DNA from: a virus | Reading direction: 5' to 3' (one strand) | DNA: 38,461 bases | Virus record (IMG/VR): IMGVR_UViG_3300035688_000024 | Location: 1-38,461 of that record | In this document: one piece after another, positions 10,098-27,933 of the stretch | How the letters are laid out: each line of letters starts with the position of its first letter | Numbering within the stretch: the first letter of the stretch is position 1 | Notes under the pieces: model-generated | What the model was told of the DNA's origin: nothing | Seen by the model: only the letters and a program-made list of their open reading frames with translations | The model's database searches: none | Position numbers and translations under genes: made by a program

Positions 10098-10249
10098 TGC
10101 TTCTTTCCTAGCTTGGTTTTCGCTAACAACTCCTGAATCTTGATAGGCTTCTTGCCTTTCTCTTTAGACTCTATTGGTTCACCTCTAACAGCGTTAATGA
10201 AACGACGATATAAGTCCTCTTGCGTGTAGTCATAGTCCAGTTTAGACAT
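10094..10249 (-). CDS. Small basic protein (51 aa) between portal and polyvalent protein
   Basis: The frame MSKLDYDYTQEDLYRRF... overlaps the portal gene's end by 8 bases and the next start by 4 (ATGA), with a GAGGAGG site upstream of ATG. The C-terminal half is Lys-rich. Tight overlap on both sides and a strong ribosome site support a real gene. The function is unknown; it may chaperone or bind the adjacent structural proteins. Confidence 0.75.
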   Translation of the reverse strand: MSKLDYDYTQEDLYRRFINAVRGEPIESKEKGKKPIKIQELLAKTKLGKKQ

Positions 10250-11969
10250 TTGCTACCTCCTCACCCTTGGTAGTTTCTGGTGATCCTCGTGTTCCGCCAC
10301 CTCCGGCAGTCAATAAGGCCGCTGCCTCTTCAGCTTTCTTCCCTCCTGCCTCTTCCTTCGCCTTGCCCTCAATCGGGCTTAACTGCCCCATTGCTCGCCT
10401 TTGTGCTAGGATAGTCTCTGCTCGGCTAGTCAGAATATCAGCCTCAAGTTTCTCTACTATACTGGGCTTCTGCCCATTCTTTTCCTCCAGGAGACTATTA
10501 GCACTATTGAACAGGAATAGAACCTCATCAATTCTCTCCGCCCGCTCAGCCCTTAGTTGAGTCAACATTCCAGTTGGGTTTTCAGCCTTGATTATCTCTC
10601 TAATAACGTAATCATCAGGGAGAACACCACGAGCAGCAATCGCAAATTGTAAGTCAGCCATCTGTTGTTCCTTTGATATACTGCGGAATGTATATTGAAT
10701 CGAGTAGTCTCCCTCTAAGTCGGCTTTCGTGTAACTATTCTTGCTTCCTTCTTGCCCAAGCTCCAAGTTCTCGTCAAGCTGGATGCACTGTTTGATAATC
10801 ATCCTGCTCCCAGATTGATAGAACCAAGCCTTTGTATTTACTCTCGGCAGAAATATGTCATCTCTCGAACCCGTCAACTGGGTAATTGCTACATTGGATA
10901 GCGGGAATCCTAGTGTGCCATAGTCAATGGCTGATAGACTTCCTCTCTGATTCCCAGTCTCTATAATTGAGTAATATAACCTTGTAGCGTTCTTAATGTC
11001 GGAGATGGGCATGAACTTGTAACCTCCGCCTTTCTCCACGCCATGAACTGTCTTTTGCTTATATGGCGATTTCTCAGGTTTGGGCATATTCTCCCCATGA
11101 GAACTCTCATATTGTAGTGCCCTGGCTAGAGAATCTATATTCAATGTTCGGAGTATGGTAACCGCCTCATTCTTCATATCCCAGAGGTCACGATTCGCCC
11201 ACAGGAAACTTTCGCCCTGATGTTCTACTGCATCTTCTGTCCCTAAACTAGAACCAGTAGGACAGATAACACAAACGAATGGGACATATCCATAGGGATT
11301 GGGTTGCTCTCTGATTATCTGCTTATCCACAAAGACGACATTCTTCTCAGGGTCCCAGAAGTCAACCACCTCGGCATAACTTTCTATCTTTACCGCTGAT
11401 AACCTGTCCCCTGGCTTGGTATATTCCCTTTCAATCTGTGCCTTCGATTGCCTAAACCACGGAGCAGCCCAAACCAAGTCCTTGCCATCTATGTCATCGG
11501 TGTAACAACGAGTGTCTAGTGGCAGGACATCGGGAACTAAACCTCTTACTGGGTCAATTCTTATACATATCCTAGCAGCAATTCGCCCTCTCACACCTAG
11601 TTGTTCATTGAGGAAAGAGTCTAGCCCCGGTATTTTTCGCTTCGGCAGTTGCTCGTCTATTATGTAGAATATGTCTTTAAGAAACTGCTCGATTGTGTTA
11701 GTTTTCGTATCGCTCAGCCCCTTCCCTTCAATAACAATCTGCATATTAGCCCCGCCCAAGATTGATATGCACTTTTGAACATAAATCAAGGCGTCGTTCA
11801 GAGTGATATTGGCAACATCCTCCATTTCCTTTTTGCCATCAAGTTGCATCATCTTAAACGGCTTCATAAAATACAGGGCTTCGTCCACATCATTGCGGTC
11901 AAAGATGGGCTTCATCTCCTCCCGTTTATCGTCAAATAATTTGTATTCCTCTCTTGATTCGTCTGCCAT
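10242..11969 (-). CDS. Portal protein (575 aa)
   Basis: The size, the order terminase-portal-head genes and the composition fit a portal. There is a long acidic N-terminal part, a central mixed alpha/beta body including a Tyr/Phe-rich membrane-free core, a long helix near residues 440-520 rich in Glu/Arg/Ala, and a disordered Gly/Glu-rich C-terminal tail. An AAGGAG site precedes ATG 11969. The portal would form the dodecameric DNA channel at one capsid vertex and dock the terminase. I identify it chiefly by context and size. Confidence 0.8.
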   Translation of the reverse strand: MADESREEYKLFDDKREEMKPIFDRNDVDEALYFMKPFKMMQLDGKKEMEDVANITLNDALIYVQKCISILGGANMQIVIEGKGLSDTKTNTIEQFLKDIFYIIDEQLPKRKIPGLDSFLNEQLGVRGRIAARICIRIDPVRGLVPDVLPLDTRCYTDDIDGKDLVWAAPWFRQSKAQIEREYTKPGDRLSAVKIESYAEVVDFWDPEKNVVFVDKQIIREQPNPYGYVPFVCVICPTGSSLGTEDAVEHQGESFLWANRDLWDMKNEAVTILRTLNIDSLARALQYESSHGENMPKPEKSPYKQKTVHGVEKGGGYKFMPISDIKNATRLYYSIIETGNQRGSLSAIDYGTLGFPLSNVAITQLTGSRDDIFLPRVNTKAWFYQSGSRMIIKQCIQLDENLELGQEGSKNSYTKADLEGDYSIQYTFRSISKEQQMADLQFAIAARGVLPDDYVIREIIKAENPTGMLTQLRAERAERIDEVLFLFNSANSLLEEKNGQKPSIVEKLEADILTSRAETILAQRRAMGQLSPIEGKAKEEAGGKKAEEAAALLTAGGGGTRGSPETTKGEEVANV

Positions 11970-14391: not shown

Positions 14392-14415
14392 CTTATCCCG
14401 CTGTCATTTCCTTAA

Positions 14416-14486
14416 TGGCGGGGCTGGGAATTGAACCCAGTTCTCAGGGATATGAGCCCTGTGTGTTACCGTTTCACTTCCCCGCG
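14416..14486 (-). tRNA. tRNA-Met (anticodon CAT), initiator-like
   Basis: The 71-base cloverleaf has acceptor CGCGGGG against CCCCGCC, leaving C1 opposite C72. The D arm is GTG/CAC, and the anticodon arm CAGGG-CTCATAT-CCCTG gives anticodon CAT. The variable loop is AGAA, the T arm CTGGG-TTCAATT-CCCAG, and the discriminator A. No CCA is encoded. The unpaired 1-72 position and three consecutive G-C pairs at 29-31/39-41 are hallmarks of bacterial initiator tRNA. The T11-A24 pair is elongator-like, and position 8 is A instead of the usual T. Confidence 0.85.
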
Positions 14487-14497
14487 ATGTAAGTCAG

Positions 14498-16147: not shown

Positions 16148-16627
16148 TTATTCATTTTGTAAAATCCAGTCCTCATTATTCCAAACTTTATTCCAACGTT
16201 CCTTTATCACAAAAGCCAGCCAAAGTTGCTCCATTGAGGTAAATTCAGAATTATGGATATTACCCTTAGCATTGGTTGAGATGGCACGATATAATCTCCA
16301 TAAAAGATTATAGGGAAAGAACTTTTCCCTTCCACGCTTCACCATCTCCTGCAACTGGTCTTGGCGAGGTAGCCAGACTACTTTGCGTTTATTGTAATGC
16401 CCTCTACCATCTTCTGCCGTGGCAATATACAATACCTTGCCATTGGCGTCTTGCCAATCACGGAGCGTGACAGACTTAATAGCATAGATGTAAATTTTAC
16501 CATCTACAAACAAAACATCACCATCTACAAACAAATCAGGATGCCTTTCATTAGAATACGGCTTTCTTAGTGCCTGTATCTCCACCGCCTTCTCACACAT
16601 CTTGATATAAGTTTCTGAAGTGTCCAT
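16148..16627 (-). CDS. Hypothetical protein (159 aa)
   Basis: Residues 32-48 contain a repeated FVDG element (LFVDGDVLFVDGK), visible in DNA as a duplicated 15-mer around 16503-16533. The C-terminal half is Trp-rich. A KSVTLRDWQDANGKVLYIATAEDG stretch is beta-hairpin-like. No family is recognised. It is the last gene before the early terminator. The FVDG word also occurs in the product of the next gene upstream, suggesting local duplication. Confidence 0.7.
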   Translation of the reverse strand: MDTSETYIKMCEKAVEIQALRKPYSNERHPDLFVDGDVLFVDGKIYIYAIKSVTLRDWQDANGKVLYIATAEDGRGHYNKRKVVWLPRQDQLQEMVKRGREKFFPYNLLWRLYRAISTNAKGNIHNSEFTSMEQLWLAFVIKERWNKVWNNEDWILQNE

Positions 16628-18288: not shown

Positions 18289-18708
18289 TTACTTGATTCT
18301 TTGTTTGTAAATCTTCCTACACGCCCTACATTCCCTTGAACCATCAGGGCGAATATGTGTGTTGAATAAATTATATGGATGCCCATGTAGGCAGCAATTC
18401 CTAGAAAGTTTCCTAGCCCTCAGAATATTAGGGAGTATGCCCCTCTTGATATTTTCGGTTCGTGTTACAACTTCCAAGTGGCTTGGGTTAACACATACCT
18501 TATTGCGGCATAGGTGGTCAATCTCAAACCCATCTGGGATGATATCCCTCGATTCTTCATAGGCAAATCTGTGTGCTCTTATCTTGCCATTCCCATCCCA
18601 AAATAAACCATAACCATTGCTTGTGAGACACCCAATCCACTCCCAACACCCCGATGATTGCTTTACGACCTTAGCCCAAAATCTCTCACTTGCTGTCTTA
18701 TTGCTCAT
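18289..18708 (-). CDS. HNH endonuclease (HNH_3 type, 139 aa)
   Basis: Motifs in order: GCWEWIGCLTSNGYG near 20, HRFAYE near 45, then the nuclease core IPDGFEIDHLCRNKVCVNPSHLEVV (about 57-81) with the paired DH, N and H residues. The C-terminal CCLHGHPY...CRACRK region is a zinc-binding tail. This is the stand-alone homing-type HNH common in phages. It overlaps the upstream gene by 4 bases, so it is embedded in the operon. Confidence 0.88.
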   Translation of the reverse strand: MSNKTASERFWAKVVKQSSGCWEWIGCLTSNGYGLFWDGNGKIRAHRFAYEESRDIIPDGFEIDHLCRNKVCVNPSHLEVVTRTENIKRGILPNILRARKLSRNCCLHGHPYNLFNTHIRPDGSRECRACRKIYKQRIK

Positions 18709-19046: not shown

Positions 19047-19748
19047 CTATCTCTTCACGAGTCCTTGATACTTGCCCCTACTGTATTTATCCGGCGGCAC
19101 GGCATCCTTCCCGTACCGTTCCCAGTTCTTTAAGATTCCGCCGATGTATCTCCAATCCTTTCTATTGCGTTTCACTGCTTCCCGGATAGCGTCGGCCACC
19201 CAGGGAGCCGTGAATCTTTTTACCGCGAGCCCTATTTCGTTCTCTACGTCTTCACTTAAAGAGTCGGTCCCCAATGCTTTCTTATAAACTTCGTAAACTT
19301 CTTCTATAGATAAACAACAACCTTCTTCTTTAACTTGTTCTTTAACTTTAACTTGTTCTTTAACTTCTATTGGACTTACTCCGTCATTACTCTGGAGTAA
19401 TTCAGGAGGAATTGAGGGGATTTGTGATTGAGATTCCCTATCTTTTCTCAACCCAGGCTGGTGTTTTTCAAAGTTTTTCATCCATAAATATTGATTTCCA
19501 TTAACAGAATAACGGGAAATTAGCCCAGAAAGTTCTAATTCCTTGAGGTATTTTTCAATTTTTGGGACAGTGATTGTCCGCCGGGGGAACACAATGCTTT
19601 TCACGGTTGTCGCATCTCCGTGCATCCTGCCCTCACAATCCAAGTGAGTAATCAGCCAAGTAAAGAGTAGCCGACAAGTATCATCTGACAGTGCATCTAC
19701 TTTCTCGTCTAGACTAATTTCTTTGCTTACAAATCTGCCTCTAGCCAT
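19047..19748 (-). CDS. DnaD-like replication protein (233 aa)
   Basis: The N-terminal 90 residues resemble a phage replisome-organiser winged helix (MARGRFVSKEISLDEKV, FTWLITHLDCEGRM). A short linker contains a duplicated VKEQVK word (DNA repeats near 19326-19366). The C-terminal part ends with WRYIGGILKNWERYG, the signature of the DnaD/DnaB_2 domain. It should bind the origin and recruit the host helicase loader. No phage polymerase or helicase is seen, so replication probably depends on host machinery. Confidence 0.82.
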   Translation of the reverse strand: MARGRFVSKEISLDEKVDALSDDTCRLLFTWLITHLDCEGRMHGDATTVKSIVFPRRTITVPKIEKYLKELELSGLISRYSVNGNQYLWMKNFEKHQPGLRKDRESQSQIPSIPPELLQSNDGVSPIEVKEQVKVKEQVKEEGCCLSIEEVYEVYKKALGTDSLSEDVENEIGLAVKRFTAPWVADAIREAVKRNRKDWRYIGGILKNWERYGKDAVPPDKYSRGKYQGLVKR

Positions 19749-19766: not shown

Positions 19767-20678
19767 TCATAACTTCTTTTGATGTACTAATTGATTATAT
19801 TTACTAAATCGGGCATTGCATCCTGTAACGCAGTGTGGGTCTTTCCCAGGATTGCCCGGAGGTGAAACATGGTCTCGGAATAAATGAGAGCAATAAAACT
19901 CTCTGCCATATTCGTCATAAAGACGCTCGGTCATAGAAAGGTAACATGGGATTTCTATGTTTTCAGGAAAGTAATTACCATTCATATGGTGAGTTGTGTC
20001 GAATATGTATTTTGAAACAGAATCAAGTTTTTCAGATGCCTTAAATAAGATAGCCACATCATCTTTTGTTAAAGCCATATCGCCATCACCCTTAAAGAAA
20101 GAGGCAGACACAGAATAGAGATTGGGGAAATTGTCTTGGCAAAATTCTATGAACCGTTCAAACCTTGAGGCGTTTTGATGTGTGGCCGTATAAGATACGG
20201 AAACGTGTGCCACATGATAAATTGCCTCTTTGATATTGGCTATAACTTTCTCGAAATAATCGCCACCAACAAGTTGATTCCATCGTTCAGCGTCATAATC
20301 ATCGAGAGAGGTTTTAATTCTAAAGAGGGATTTCATTGCCTTACGATTCGGGAGCCTTAATAAATTGGTATTTAGGGCCATCTTGGTAATATTTCGCTGT
20401 AAATATATCTCCTCATCTAGCCAGGGAACACAAGTTGGTTCTCCCCCTGTTATATGAATAATCCCTTTCTTTCCTGCCCTTTCGCATAGATTAGAAAAGA
20501 GCTTCCTATCCATTATTTTGCTCCCCTTAATCTCATGACAATAGATACAACTCATATTGCAACGATTGGTCAAATGAATGGCAAAGCGTACTATTTCAGG
20601 AGTTCTCTTTTCCCTTAATGCACTAATAGTTTCATCTGCCCGTTCTTGAATCCTATCCCAAAATATATTGTCATTCAT
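19767..20678 (-). CDS. Radical SAM enzyme (about 303 aa)
   Basis: The cluster motif CNMSCIYCH (CX3CX2C, about residue 39) binds a [4Fe-4S] centre, and ITGGEPT (about 75) is the SAM-contact GGEP motif. The C-terminal third adds cysteines (IPCYLSM, FYCSHL, CVTGC), resembling an auxiliary SPASM/twitch-type cluster. The substrate cannot be told. A second radical-SAM-type gene lies 37 bases upstream in the same operon. ATG 20678 is chosen; GTG 20690 is also possible. Confidence 0.85.
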   Translation of the reverse strand: MNDNIFWDRIQERADETISALREKRTPEIVRFAIHLTNRCNMSCIYCHEIKGSKIMDRKLFSNLCERAGKKGIIHITGGEPTCVPWLDEEIYLQRNITKMALNTNLLRLPNRKAMKSLFRIKTSLDDYDAERWNQLVGGDYFEKVIANIKEAIYHVAHVSVSYTATHQNASRFERFIEFCQDNFPNLYSVSASFFKGDGDMALTKDDVAILFKASEKLDSVSKYIFDTTHHMNGNYFPENIEIPCYLSMTERLYDEYGREFYCSHLFRDHVSPPGNPGKDPHCVTGCNARFSKYNQLVHQKKL

Positions 20679-20715
20679 CTTGTTGCCCACTTATCTTGAT
20701 AATAAGTCTTCATAC

Positions 20716-21375
20716 TCATTCATACCTCAATCTTTTAAGATTGTCTTTTATCTTTACTTCTGTGAATTTTGTCAGCCTCTCAATAAGCATATTTACTTTG
20801 TCAGGTGGCGGCTCTAGTAGATTATGTCCCTTACTATCAGCACCGATGCTCACAAAAACAGGGGCAATTTGTTTTGTCCAGTCAACGAGAATATCAAGGT
20901 CGAAGTCCATTATAGGTTCAATACTAACCATTTTAGGATGAGGCAAATCTCGCATCGCCAGCATCCTCGCTTCTGACGTAGGAGCTTGGGTTACGTCGTC
21001 ATAATCTCTATTAGACTCTATGGTTGTGCCGAGAATAAAATCAGGGGGCATAAACTCAAGAAGCATCTCGAACCTTGATGGGTCTTTACTTTGAAACAGA
21101 TAGCGGTTAAGGGGATATTTATAGCAATGTTTTAGGGTAATGAGTAGCCATTCCACAAGTGCCTTATAGCACCACATATCGGTTGAACTCCCAACAAAGA
21201 TAAAATTACCCTCCCCAAGATTAGTCCCCATTTCCTTCTCCACAAAATGAAACTCAGGCTGGGGAAACACCTTCATATAGCAATAAACGCAATCGTGAGG
21301 GCATTGCCCCCGTATAGGATTCCAAGTATGAGTTACAAAGGGATACATATTGCCTTTTTGCTTATTTAATCCCAT
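20716..21375 (-). CDS. DUF5131/Gp37-Gp68-type radical SAM protein (219 aa)
   Basis: The start matches the DUF5131 layout: a HTWNPIRG segment followed by CPHDCVYCY (CX3CX2C, about residues 24-31), then GNFIFVGSSTDMW and TTIESNR and MVSIEPIMDFD strands of the barrel. These proteins are radical-SAM relatives of spore photoproduct lyase and recur in phages with unknown substrate. The partner radical SAM gene follows directly. A 14-codon frame couples the two (ATG over the stop). Confidence 0.82.
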   Translation of the reverse strand: MGLNKQKGNMYPFVTHTWNPIRGQCPHDCVYCYMKVFPQPEFHFVEKEMGTNLGEGNFIFVGSSTDMWCYKALVEWLLITLKHCYKYPLNRYLFQSKDPSRFEMLLEFMPPDFILGTTIESNRDYDDVTQAPTSEARMLAMRDLPHPKMVSIEPIMDFDLDILVDWTKQIAPVFVSIGADSKGHNLLEPPPDKVNMLIERLTKFTEVKIKDNLKRLRYE

Positions 21376-21473
21376 TTCATCTTCTCCAATTCATACCTCT
21401 GGGAAAGGCGAGGATAAGCCCCGCTGCCCATATCTAAAAGAAAGGAGGTGAAAGGGTTAATAGTCTTCATCAT
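21366..21473 (-). CDS. Small ORF between hypothetical gene and DUF5131 gene (35 aa)
   Basis: MMKTINPFTSFLLD... overlaps both neighbours (ATGA at its start, 10 bases at its end). Continuous overlap suggests translation, but there are no motifs or strong ribosome site. Confidence 0.4.
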   Translation of the reverse strand: MMKTINPFTSFLLDMGSGAYPRLSQRYELEKMKWD

Positions 21474-21751
21474 ATTTTTATTGGCAAAGCCTCTATCTGC
21501 TTGGCGAAGAAGCGTCTCGCCTCTGTTATTACATCTTCCAATAATGGGGGGCTATCTATATTATTCGTTCTCTTATCTAGCCTATCCCAATTAGTTTGTT
21601 TCTGCCATTTTTTATGGCGTAGTGTTTCTCTAGTCTCAAAATTATAAGTATTCAAGTAGATAATCCCATTGTTAGCCCAATCAACAACAAGACTAAATGT
21701 CCATCGTTCCCGTTTCAAATCTCCGTCTGGTCTGATTACCTCGATATTCAT
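21470..21751 (-). CDS. Hypothetical protein (93 aa)
   Basis: Chosen start MNIEVIRPDG follows AAGGAGAC and overlaps the upstream stop by 4 bases; an in-frame ATG at 21775 would sit inside that gene. The protein has beta strands at the start (VIRPDG, WTFSLVVDW, IYLNTYNF) and a helical tail. No family is recognised. Confidence 0.65.
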   Translation of the reverse strand: MNIEVIRPDGDLKRERWTFSLVVDWANNGIIYLNTYNFETRETLRHKKWQKQTNWDRLDKRTNNIDSPPLLEDVITEARRFFAKQIEALPIKI

Positions 21752-21876
21752 TTCTTGTCTCCTTCCAAGCCCCATTTCTTGAATTGAATCCTCTTCTCAG
21801 CGTCAGGGATTAGTAAAGTAGTATGTTTCCCTTCTTTGCGAACCTCCTCACTGATAAAGCAAGTTTCATATTTCAT
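21748..21876 (-). CDS. Small protein (42 aa)
   Basis: MKYETCFISEEVRKEG... has an AAGGAGTG site before ATG 21876 and a 4-base overlap with the next gene. It is too short for a fold call. Confidence 0.58.
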   Translation of the reverse strand: MKYETCFISEEVRKEGKHTTLLIPDAEKRIQFKKWGLEGDKK

Positions 21877-25012: not shown

Positions 25013-25286
25013 TTTCTCTACTCCCCGGGGCTGGAAGTAACTCCAGCCCCTCTTGTATTTCAGGACCGCTCGACTCCGCGGCTGATGTACTCTTTGGTCT
25101 CCCTCCCCTAAGTCCCATTTCTACATAGTGTTCTCTTCCGTATCTCTTAAATGTGGCTTCACCTCCTTTCTGCCCGTTCTCTGAAAAGAATTGGCTCTTT
25201 ATTAAGTGTCCGCACAAAGGACATAAAGTCGGATACTTGTCCCTTGTCGCTATTCCACCTTTATGCCCTGAGTCTTTAGGGTTCAT
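24999..25286 (-). CDS. KGG-motif protein with zinc knuckle (95 aa)
   Basis: Two Gly-rich repeats, GQKGGEATFKRYGREHYVEMG and GLRGGRPK (about 38-66), resemble the bacterial stress-type KGG motif. An N-terminal HKGGIATRDKYPTLCPLCGH adds a third KGG and a CxxC pair. Such proteins are often disordered and hydrophilic. The start overlaps the HNH gene's end by 11 bases. Confidence 0.68.
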   Translation of the reverse strand: MNPKDSGHKGGIATRDKYPTLCPLCGHLIKSQFFSENGQKGGEATFKRYGREHYVEMGLRGGRPKSTSAAESSGPEIQEGLELLPAPGSREIVKV

Positions 25287-25659
25287 TTCCCGCCTCGGTA
25301 ATCATCGTTATTGCCTCGCCAATTTGTGGCATAGTTGGTGATGTTTTCTGCCCATTTGGTCTATGTAAATTCAAGTGGCATTGATTGCAAAGGGTGATGA
25401 GATTAGAGAACTTATTGTTATTTACATTGCCATCGAGATGATGAACGACTAGGTTTTTCTCCTCTGCGCATTTTTGACATTTGCCACTATCCCTTTTAAT
25501 AACCATATTGTGAATTCGCCGATACCAGCCATTCTCATGTTTTAGGCTCGCACAATTTCTGTAGTAACCACTGATAAGTTGATGGACTCGTTGCCTTGAT
25601 ACGCCATATAGTGCCCCAATCGCTGCGTAGGAATAACCTAATTCTTTTAGACGAGCCAT
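25276..25659 (-). CDS. HNH endonuclease with helix-turn-helix, first early gene (127 aa)
   Basis: Residues 1-30 form a helix-turn-helix (LGYSYAAIGALYGVSRQRVHQLI). The nuclease core follows: KCQKCAEEKNLVVHHLDGNVNNN (about 58-80) and LITLCNQCHLNLHR (about 86-99), two CxxC zinc pairs around the HH and N residues. A frame from ATG 25722 is rejected because it would start inside the promoter's -35. ATG 25659, 35 bases past the -10, follows AGGGTTG. Confidence 0.82.
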   Translation of the reverse strand: MARLKELGYSYAAIGALYGVSRQRVHQLISGYYRNCASLKHENGWYRRIHNMVIKRDSGKCQKCAEEKNLVVHHLDGNVNNNKFSNLITLCNQCHLNLHRPNGQKTSPTMPQIGEAITMITEAGNEP

Positions 25660-25693
25660 GTTTTCAACCCTGTTCACTTTATCCACTGTGCCT

Positions 25694-25722
25694 ATCTTAC
25701 ACCCCCCTTGCGAAAATGTCAA
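25694..25722 (-). promoter_or_regulatory. Early leftward promoter
   Basis: A perfect TTGACA (25717-25722), 17-base spacer and TAAGAT -10 (25694-25699) drive the early operon. Upstream of the -35, three copies of a GGCTAT/AGCTAT word (25725-25730, 25736-25741, 25745-25750) may be a regulator site. Confidence 0.85.
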
Positions 25723-25813: not shown

Positions 25814-25908
25814 AACATAAGACCTTCCTATTGTTCAACACCAGATGTATCATTTGTTCACACTTGTTAAACTTGGCGACAGAGCAAATAATTAACCATG
25901 ATACTGCC

Positions 25909-26505
25909 ATGACCGAAGAGGCTATTGGGCACAAACTTAGACGCCTCAGAGAGCAAGCGCGTCTCAGTAAAAGAGAATTGGCAAGACGTTCAGGCATTGA
26001 TAGGGTACACATCATAAAAATAGAGAGTGGAAAGGTTAAAAGCATCACACTGAAAACAGCTCAGCGCCTTGCCAAAGGCTTAGACAAACCTCCAAGCGTC
26101 TTCTTTGGCGAGTCCCCTGAGTTAAAATTCGCGCCCAAAACCTCGCTGGCTGACTTGGAGCTCAGTATTAAGGCTTATATTCCCGTCTATACCGAAGTCT
26201 CCGCCGGGGACGGGATTGAACCAATAGATTGGGTTGCCTGCACTAGAGTTAAGGCAGCACCTGAATCCTTACGAGCTTATAGAGTGAAGGGCTTTTGTCT
26301 TATGCCAGAAATTCTTGAAGGGGATACGGTGATAGTTGATACTGAGCAACAGCCTAGCCCTGGTAAATTGGTAGTAGTCATCATAGATGGACAAGCATCA
26401 GTTAAGCGTTTTACCGGCGATTATCTTGAGGATAACAATGGCAAATACCGGCCTGATAATGTTCACACCCATGGCGTAGTCGTTGGCATTTATAGGGAAA
26501 AGTAA
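25909..26505 (+). CDS. Phage repressor: HTH plus S24-like domain with Cys in place of Ser
   Basis: Residues 1-60 are an XRE helix-turn-helix (LRRLREQARLSKRELARRSG, then IKIESGKVKS). Residues 95-198 are the LexA/CI-type C-terminal domain. In the usual G-D-S-M-x-P site the sequence reads GFCLMP, putting Cys130 where the catalytic Ser should be. The partner Lys166 (SVKRF) is kept. Self-cleavage may therefore be lost or altered. The start is placed at ATG 25909; the upstream frame from 25831 adds unrelated residues. No ribosome site is seen, so the mRNA may be leaderless as for lambda cI. Confidence 0.86.
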   Translation: MTEEAIGHKLRRLREQARLSKRELARRSGIDRVHIIKIESGKVKSITLKTAQRLAKGLDKPPSVFFGESPELKFAPKTSLADLELSIKAYIPVYTEVSAGDGIEPIDWVACTRVKAAPESLRAYRVKGFCLMPEILEGDTVIVDTEQQPSPGKLVVVIIDGQASVKRFTGDYLEDNNGKYRPDNVHTHGVVVGIYREK

Positions 26506-26946: not shown

Positions 26947-27933
26947 ATGAATCTAATTAAAAGAGGCTCGATTCAGTTTATACCAACTGACTTTTACGGC
27001 ATATTATCTCAAATAGGCGAAAACATACAGCTTTTACACCAAATGACTAATACTTTTATTCAAAAGGAATTGCACCAGGCAAGTGAAGAATTCCTCTTCA
27101 GCCTTAAGCTCGAAAACAGAACCCCTGCAACCCTCCGGTATTATCGCCAGCATTTAGATTATTTTCTCTCACAACCCCTGCCGCGATATATCCATGACAT
27201 TACCAAGGAACATATAAAAGATTATCTCAAAACAAAACAGGCTACTGTTTATATGATGCACGGCTCATATCGAGCTCTTAGAGCCTTTTTTAATTGGGCG
27301 ACCAAGGAACATTATTATATAGGCGCTAATCCCGTATTAAGCACGAAGGCTCCCACATTGCCCCGTAAAAATATCCCTACTATTGGTCCCACGGAGTTTA
27401 AGGCATTGGTCAAATCGTGTGATGATAAATTCCTGGGTAGGAGAGACAAGGCAATCCTCTTTATTCTATATGATACCGGGATAAGACTCCAGGAATTGAC
27501 GAATCTGAAGTTATCTGATATAGACCTGGGCAATGGACTTTTTAAGATCACCGGTAAGGGAAATAAGGAACGCATGGTAAGGATAGGGCGCGTGACAATT
27601 AAGGTACTCTGGAATTATCTAAAGATACGTAGTGGCCAGTATAATAACCTCTGGCTTACCGAGGAACGGATACCAATACAAGCGAATGGTTTAAGCCAAG
27701 CTATTAAGCGCATGAGCATAGCAGCCAATGTGCCTAATCTCTCCGCTCATAAATTCCGCCATAGCTTTGCGGTGAATTTTCTCAGAAATGGGGGGGATAT
27801 TTTCTCGCTCCAGATTTTATTGGGGCATTCTGACCTGGCTATGGTTCGGAGATATAGCGGTGCCTTAAATACTGATGATGCCCTGCTATCCCATGAAAAG
27901 TTTAGCCCGGTAGATAGACTCGGCCTAAAATAA
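26947..27933 (+). CDS. int: Tyrosine recombinase integrase (328 aa)
   Basis: Site-specific integration enzyme. An N-terminal extension (1-35) precedes a core-binding helical domain (about 45-135). The catalytic domain has Arg in TGIRLQEL (about 180), the H-x-x-R box HKFRHSF (about 268), LGHSDL (about 293) and the nucleophile Tyr in VRRYSG (about 303). All key residues are present. The ATG at 26947 sits against attP and lacks a ribosome site; ATG 27043 is an alternative. After integration the gene would lie just downstream of, and co-directional with, the host tRNA. Confidence 0.94.
   Translation: MNLIKRGSIQFIPTDFYGILSQIGENIQLLHQMTNTFIQKELHQASEEFLFSLKLENRTPATLRYYRQHLDYFLSQPLPRYIHDITKEHIKDYLKTKQATVYMMHGSYRALRAFFNWATKEHYYIGANPVLSTKAPTLPRKNIPTIGPTEFKALVKSCDDKFLGRRDKAILFILYDTGIRLQELTNLKLSDIDLGNGLFKITGKGNKERMVRIGRVTIKVLWNYLKIRSGQYNNLWLTEERIPIQANGLSQAIKRMSIAANVPNLSAHKFRHSFAVNFLRNGGDIFSLQILLGHSDLAMVRRYSGALNTDDALLSHEKFSPVDRLGLK

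Follow-up and report, generated by a model that had tools for sequence, protein, structure and literature searches.

Two neighbouring radical-SAM genes were analysed in the early operon of a temperate phage, and an even chance was given to the reading that they encode two functionally separate accessory radical enzymes brought together by chance. Gene 1 would be a minimal enzyme with the fold of spore photoproduct lyase (SPL) and gene 2 a radical-SAM/twitch protein. Gene 1 represents a broad phage family that is so far unstudied, and gene 2 is a rare orphan.

The window (the whole stretch of DNA analysed, 38,461 bases, corresponding to the complete record) derives from a temperate tailed phage with a major head protein, terminase subunits, a CI/S24-type repressor and a tyrosine integrase (Table 1). 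Both radical-SAM ORFs are located on the minus strand, each with a CX3CX2C motif, and are consecutive as the sequence-only reading had described. They lie in the early operon, which points away from the repressor, and immediately precede a DnaD-like gene; a NinG-like endonuclease follows at a greater distance, so that their placement among replication genes was a fair one. The 37-base gap given in that reading is obtained from ATG 20678, the start used by the single close relative of gene 2 in the alignment, but shortens to 25 bases from the GTG start. Codon-position identity at positions 1, 2 and 3 was 0.79, 0.88 and 0.47 for gene 2 against viral contig L082 and 0.76, 0.86 and 0.55 for gene 1 against L002. 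As the amino acids are kept and third codon positions are nearly randomised, both genes were taken to be real and under protein-level selection. A tRNA-Met (CAT) was located at 14415-14487, between the early and packaging genes of the window, and two HNH endonuclease-type genes were located in the early region at 18289-18708 and 25276-25722.

Table 1. Features of the window discussed in the text, with the basis of assignment.
Feature	Coordinates	Strand	Basis
Gene 1: predicted DUF5131-clade radical-SAM protein, 219 aa	20716..21375	-	motif, Pfam, predicted fold
Gene 2: putative twitch-type radical-SAM protein, 307 aa from GTG, 303 aa from ATG 20678	19767..20690	-	motif, Pfam
Gap of 37 bases between genes 1 and 2 if gene 2 starts at ATG 20678	20679..20715	-	
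Replication initiation / DnaD-like protein, next downstream of gene 2	19047..19748	-	
101 aa protein, phrog_33971, upstream of gene 1	21470..21775	-	
CI/S24-type repressor, divergent from early operon	25831..26505	+	
Tyrosine integrase	26947..27933	+	

Gene 1 carries the core motif C25-X3-C29-X2-C32 with YCY at residues 31-33. Both proteins carry CX3CX2C and the fold matches of gene 1 are radical-SAM enzymes, which places the two in the radical SAM superfamily; they are alike only as members of it. The DUF5131 assignment made earlier from sequence holds for the clade of gene 1, of which 69 of 73 members matched PF07505 at E ≤ 0.001 (best 3.1e-14), whereas gene 1 itself scored 22.3 bits, below the Pfam gathering cut-off of 28.9. 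All 73 members matched phrog_2045 and 28 of 73 matched PF04055 (Radical_SAM) at E ≤ 0.001, the window's gene 1 not being among the latter. A scan of viral sequences with gene 1 gave 102 related stretches, and the 80 best (39-70% identity) were retained; a genome scan gave 114, and 80 of these were retained. The clade is compact and is present in about 100 viral contigs and in many bacterial and archaeal genomes. Sixteen of the residues examined were invariant in 77 unique sequences (C25, Y31, C32, D66, K97, T118, E120, R137, E153, P154, G178, E188, P189, K210, N212 and R215).

Record titles of the genomic relatives included Bacteroides, Prevotella, Dysgonomonas, Treponema, Desulfobacterales, Thermoplasmata, Nanoarchaeota and Bathyarchaeota. 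Most lineages with gene 1 relatives are presumably anaerobic; Pricia, Draconibacterium and a Bacillus sp. MAG, which also carry relatives, were assumed not to be necessarily, or strictly, so. An anaerobic host for the phage, as previously suggested, is plausible when judged from these relatives only, most of them being in records named for anaerobic lineages. Literature searches returned no paper naming DUF5131 or PF07505 in the collection searched. Searches for Gp37Gp68/TcmP returned mostly the unrelated TCMP, and two papers mention TcmP in tables.

A conserved partner of DUF5131 was sought and rejected, the viral neighbours being diverse. All-against-all clustering of ORFs from the 80 viral DUF5131 loci gave no family in more than 9 loci besides DUF5131 itself and antisense ORFs inside it. 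A Pfam scan of 143 immediate neighbours, taken from 76 of the 80 viral loci after four near-duplicates were dropped, gave no family in more than 4. At the 80 genomic loci the commonest other families occurred in 16, 13 and 12 loci, mostly on Bacteroidales mobile elements, and were read as shared element backbone. Absence of other families in VIA-align was not counted as evidence. In a Desulfurococcales MAG (L159:645-2703) a DUF5131 gene is directly followed by TcmP (TIGR04474, 83.4 bits, above cut-off), and this DUF5131 gene also gave a weak match to 'radical SAM mobile pair A'.

TcmP is the NCBIfam-named partner of DUF5131, and its position beside the archaeal relative, together with matches of 64 of 73 clade members to the PADLOC candidate-defence model PDC-M41B and of 61 of 73 to PDC-M30B, would be consistent with a counter-defence or superinfection-exclusion factor, i.e. 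a phage-borne copy of one part of a candidate defence system. This reading was considered unlikely. The window's gene 1 reached only E 0.02 against a PADLOC candidate-defence model and lies in the early replication operon, not next to the repressor. None of the 28 genomes or records tested that bear a clade member, a set that did not include the window, had TcmP (TIGR04474), and both window genes flanking gene 1 are other than TcmP.

Gene 2 scored 38.7 bits against Pfam Radical_SAM, above the cut-off of 29.5. The features attributed to it in the sequence-only reading were all located, namely C44-X3-C48-X2-C51, GGEP and four further C-terminal cysteines at 249, 267, 287 and 291. The latter are arranged as C249-X12-G-X4-C267 followed by C287-X3-C291, which fits the CX9-15GX4C motif given for SPASM/twitch enzymes in two papers that also describe the four-cysteine auxiliary cluster of BtrN (PMC6231123, PMC9012708). 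All four cysteines are kept in the 77% identical homologue, and a looser layout (last spacing 2-5) arose in 12 of 20000 shuffles of the gene 2 C-terminus. The proposal that the extra cysteines ligate an auxiliary cluster is supported in so far as their spacing fits a twitch layout. The AF2 model of gene 2 was of low confidence (pLDDT 41) for want of relatives, and the putative twitch domain was assigned from motif spacing.

The order of C-X12-G-X4-C and C-X3-C after a radical-SAM core is shared with BtrN, MoaA and NF033640, whereas gene 2 is an orphan sequence. Assignment as MoaA was rejected: the MoaA models were the best NCBIfam matches at 64.8 bits but fall far below the cut-off of 231, and MoaA has three C-terminal cysteines where gene 2 has four and no C-terminal QIGG tail. 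NF033640 matched at E 2.1e-10, below cut-off. Assignment as a prokaryotic viperin was also rejected (NF038283, 26.5 bits against a cut-off of 180).

Close relatives of gene 2 were obtained from two viral scans as L082 and L083 only, equal in score; these are one 77% identical gene on two contigs and were counted as one independent close relative. A scan of genome contigs gave no relative. None was obtained from 398 and 297 genomes of two phyla at E ≤ 1e-14, in scans run without a positive control, and among 25 DUF5131-bearing genomes 4 gave only generic, partial matches (best 1.4e-9). Other phage matches came from 8 records, covering half of the query or less at 27-35% identity; of three that were inspected, two (L172 and L173) carry MoaA-like sequence with a QIGG tail and the third is L171, described below. 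Plasmid matches were partial. Besides gene 2, the L082 phage shares with the window a head protein (25%), the 575-aa protein at 10242-11969 (23%) and the region 16148-16627, in pieces at 49-74%. Since only these few genes are common to the two phages, gene 2 looks to have been exchanged recently between phages. The phage with the gene 2 homologue also encodes, upstream, a long hexapeptide-type repeat protein (IGQNAV repeats; L082:572-1513). In the gut phage MT835491 (L171:2917-3879) a radical-SAM protein was found with a twitch-like C-X-G-X4-C and C-X3-C layout, located by eye, the last cysteines being left unaligned in a three-way alignment.

A further reading, also improbable, would make gene 2 a RiPP-type maturase of peptides. 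Peptides are frequent substrates of SPASM/twitch enzymes (PMC6231123, PMC9012708), and gene 2 gave weak NCBIfam matches to several maturases. However, short ORFs near gene 2 were listed and judged by eye and gave no convincing small precursor peptide, and the best matches of gene 2, far below cut-off as they are, were to MoaA models.

None of the 80 viral DUF5131 loci had gene 2 in its surroundings (flanks of up to 5 kb, less where a contig ended), and neither did any of the 80 genomic loci (flanks of up to 6 kb; DUF5131 ORF recovered in 78). DUF5131 was in turn absent from the 42-kb L082 record that carries the gene 2 homologue. A conserved pair was rejected on these counts. The search for the gene pair in other phages that had been recommended in the sequence-only reading thus went against its suggestion that the two enzymes could act together in modification or repair, and gave the first of the two outcomes that it had named as refuting, a pair not conserved elsewhere. 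A second radical-SAM protein was present in 5 of 50 DUF5131 phage records (a subset of the 80) and within 5 kb in 2; this count was made by manual reading, with matches inside the DUF5131 gene set aside by coordinates or open-frame length. Two of these additional proteins were inspected and were of types other than gene 2. In one DUF5131 phage a different small radical-SAM ORF (L025:3202-4313) lies about 1 kb upstream of DUF5131 and is followed by a gene that was taken from its sequence to be ASCH-like.

A 'radical SAM mobile pair' A/B (TIGR04471/TIGR04470) is defined in NCBIfam and was met via the archaeal relative L159 and via Pseudomonas phage M6. It likewise consists of two radical-SAM genes on a mobile element, and pair A is about the length of gene 1, but the window matched neither model (0 matches at E ≤ 0.01). 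Phage M6 encodes a 503-aa SPL/PA0069-like radical-SAM protein (L175:20120-21628) that is weakly like 'radical SAM mobile pair B'. There are phage thymidine hypermodification pathways that involve a radical-SAM enzyme. M6 is described as a thymidine-hypermodifying phage (PMC6449724), and Yuavirus hydroxymethyltransferase and hmdU kinase genes are tied to the thymidine hypermodification pathway in another source (PMC11946847). The M6 protein resembles gene 1 in being a phage-encoded radical-SAM protein of SPL type, but is longer and belongs to another family. No thymidylate synthase homologue was located in the window, which speaks against the known thymidine-hypermodification route.

It is very unlikely that the genes encode a two-step pathway, in which a new modification of phage DNA or of a tRNA is put in place by one enzyme and completed by the other. 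Such a pathway would agree with the adjacency of the genes on one strand of one operon, with the radical-SAM gene of phage M6 and with the NCBIfam mobile pair as a precedent for paired radical-SAM genes on mobile elements. It is opposed by the absence of the pair from the 80 viral loci, the 80 genomic loci and the L082 record, by the lack of a mobile pair A or B match and of thymidylate synthase in the window, and by the scarcity and different types of other radical-SAM proteins in the 50 DUF5131 phage records. The arrangement is read as an ordinary adjacency of two uncommon enzymes, and the tests made lend no support to functional coupling.

The AF2 model of gene 1 was confident (mean pLDDT 95.1). 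Using Foldseek against the PDB, the best six matches were all SPL (E 4.6e-7 to 1.3e-5), followed by lipoyl synthase (E 1.5e-3). With a second structure aligner gene 1 matched SPL at Z 15.4 and 3.0 Å over 204 of 219 residues with 13% identity, the next family again being lipoyl synthase (Z 13.9). Lipoyl synthase, RlmN, viperin and others gave Z 12-14, so that gene 1 may instead act on a protein or a nucleotide. A viral structure search with the model returned mainly other radical-SAM proteins. Alignment of the DUF5131 and SPL profiles with hhalign gave a probability of 17.8%, a weak local match in the C-terminal part only. The relation to SPL that had been recognised from sequence is borne out at fold level by the Foldseek and second-aligner results, and the likeness at that level is supported by the predicted model; gene 1 is described here as a predicted radical-SAM enzyme of SPL shape and is not called an SPL. 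A shared fold with SPL is no demonstration of function.

The chemistry of SPL utilizes a cysteine hydrogen donor, C141, and two tyrosines (PMC5368176). These residues were compared in B. subtilis numbering, C141 with Y97/Y99. The YCY tyrosines are kept in the gene 1 clade (Y31 in 77 of 77 sequences, Y33 in 67 of 77). In the columns matched to C141 by eye, Cys occurs in 39 of the 77 sequences at column 65 and in 6 at column 64. The window's gene 1 has S64-T65 at these columns and C69 nearby. Gene 1 thus shares with SPL (PF20903; PDB 4FHC and relatives) its best fold match and a CX3CX2C motif with YCY, but is about 120 residues shorter, about 13% identical and without a significant full-length profile match, and its clade has no strictly conserved active-site thiol in the by-eye columns. 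A true DNA photoproduct lyase repairing UV lesions in phage DNA is highly doubtful, since the top fold match and the kept tyrosines in its favour are set against the shorter length, the lack of a strictly conserved counterpart of C141 in those columns and hosts of gene 1 relatives that are, we assume, mostly not spore formers.

Under the preferred reading of two separate accessory enzymes, gene 1 probably modifies or repairs a nucleic-acid base, as suggested by its predicted fold. As a stand-alone, minimal SPL-fold enzyme it would cleave SAM with a predicted [4Fe-4S] cluster, and the resulting 5'-deoxyadenosyl radical would take a hydrogen from a DNA or RNA base. Phage nucleic acid would be modified or repaired, or that of the host altered. 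Action on nucleic acid has no specific support for gene 2, which probably performs a two-electron oxidation, judged from its cysteine layout. Its four C-terminal cysteines would fully ligate a single auxiliary Fe-S cluster in the manner of BtrN, and following SAM cleavage this cluster would accept an electron, giving a net two-electron oxidation. Low oxygen would be required by both enzymes, which fits phages whose hosts are anaerobes.

It is also proposed, only tentatively, that the compact DUF5131 clade consists of widespread stand-alone phage radical enzymes with the SPL fold, which alter nucleic acid chemically while anaerobic bacteria and archaea are being infected; in the present phage such an enzyme would work next to a second one of twitch type. 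The role of the clade can be tested now, given the confident structure model, the 16 invariant residues and over 150 homologous loci. Should the clade act on nucleic acid, work in air would miss an oxygen-sensitive DNA or RNA chemistry present in a large group of phages that infect anaerobes of gut and sediment.
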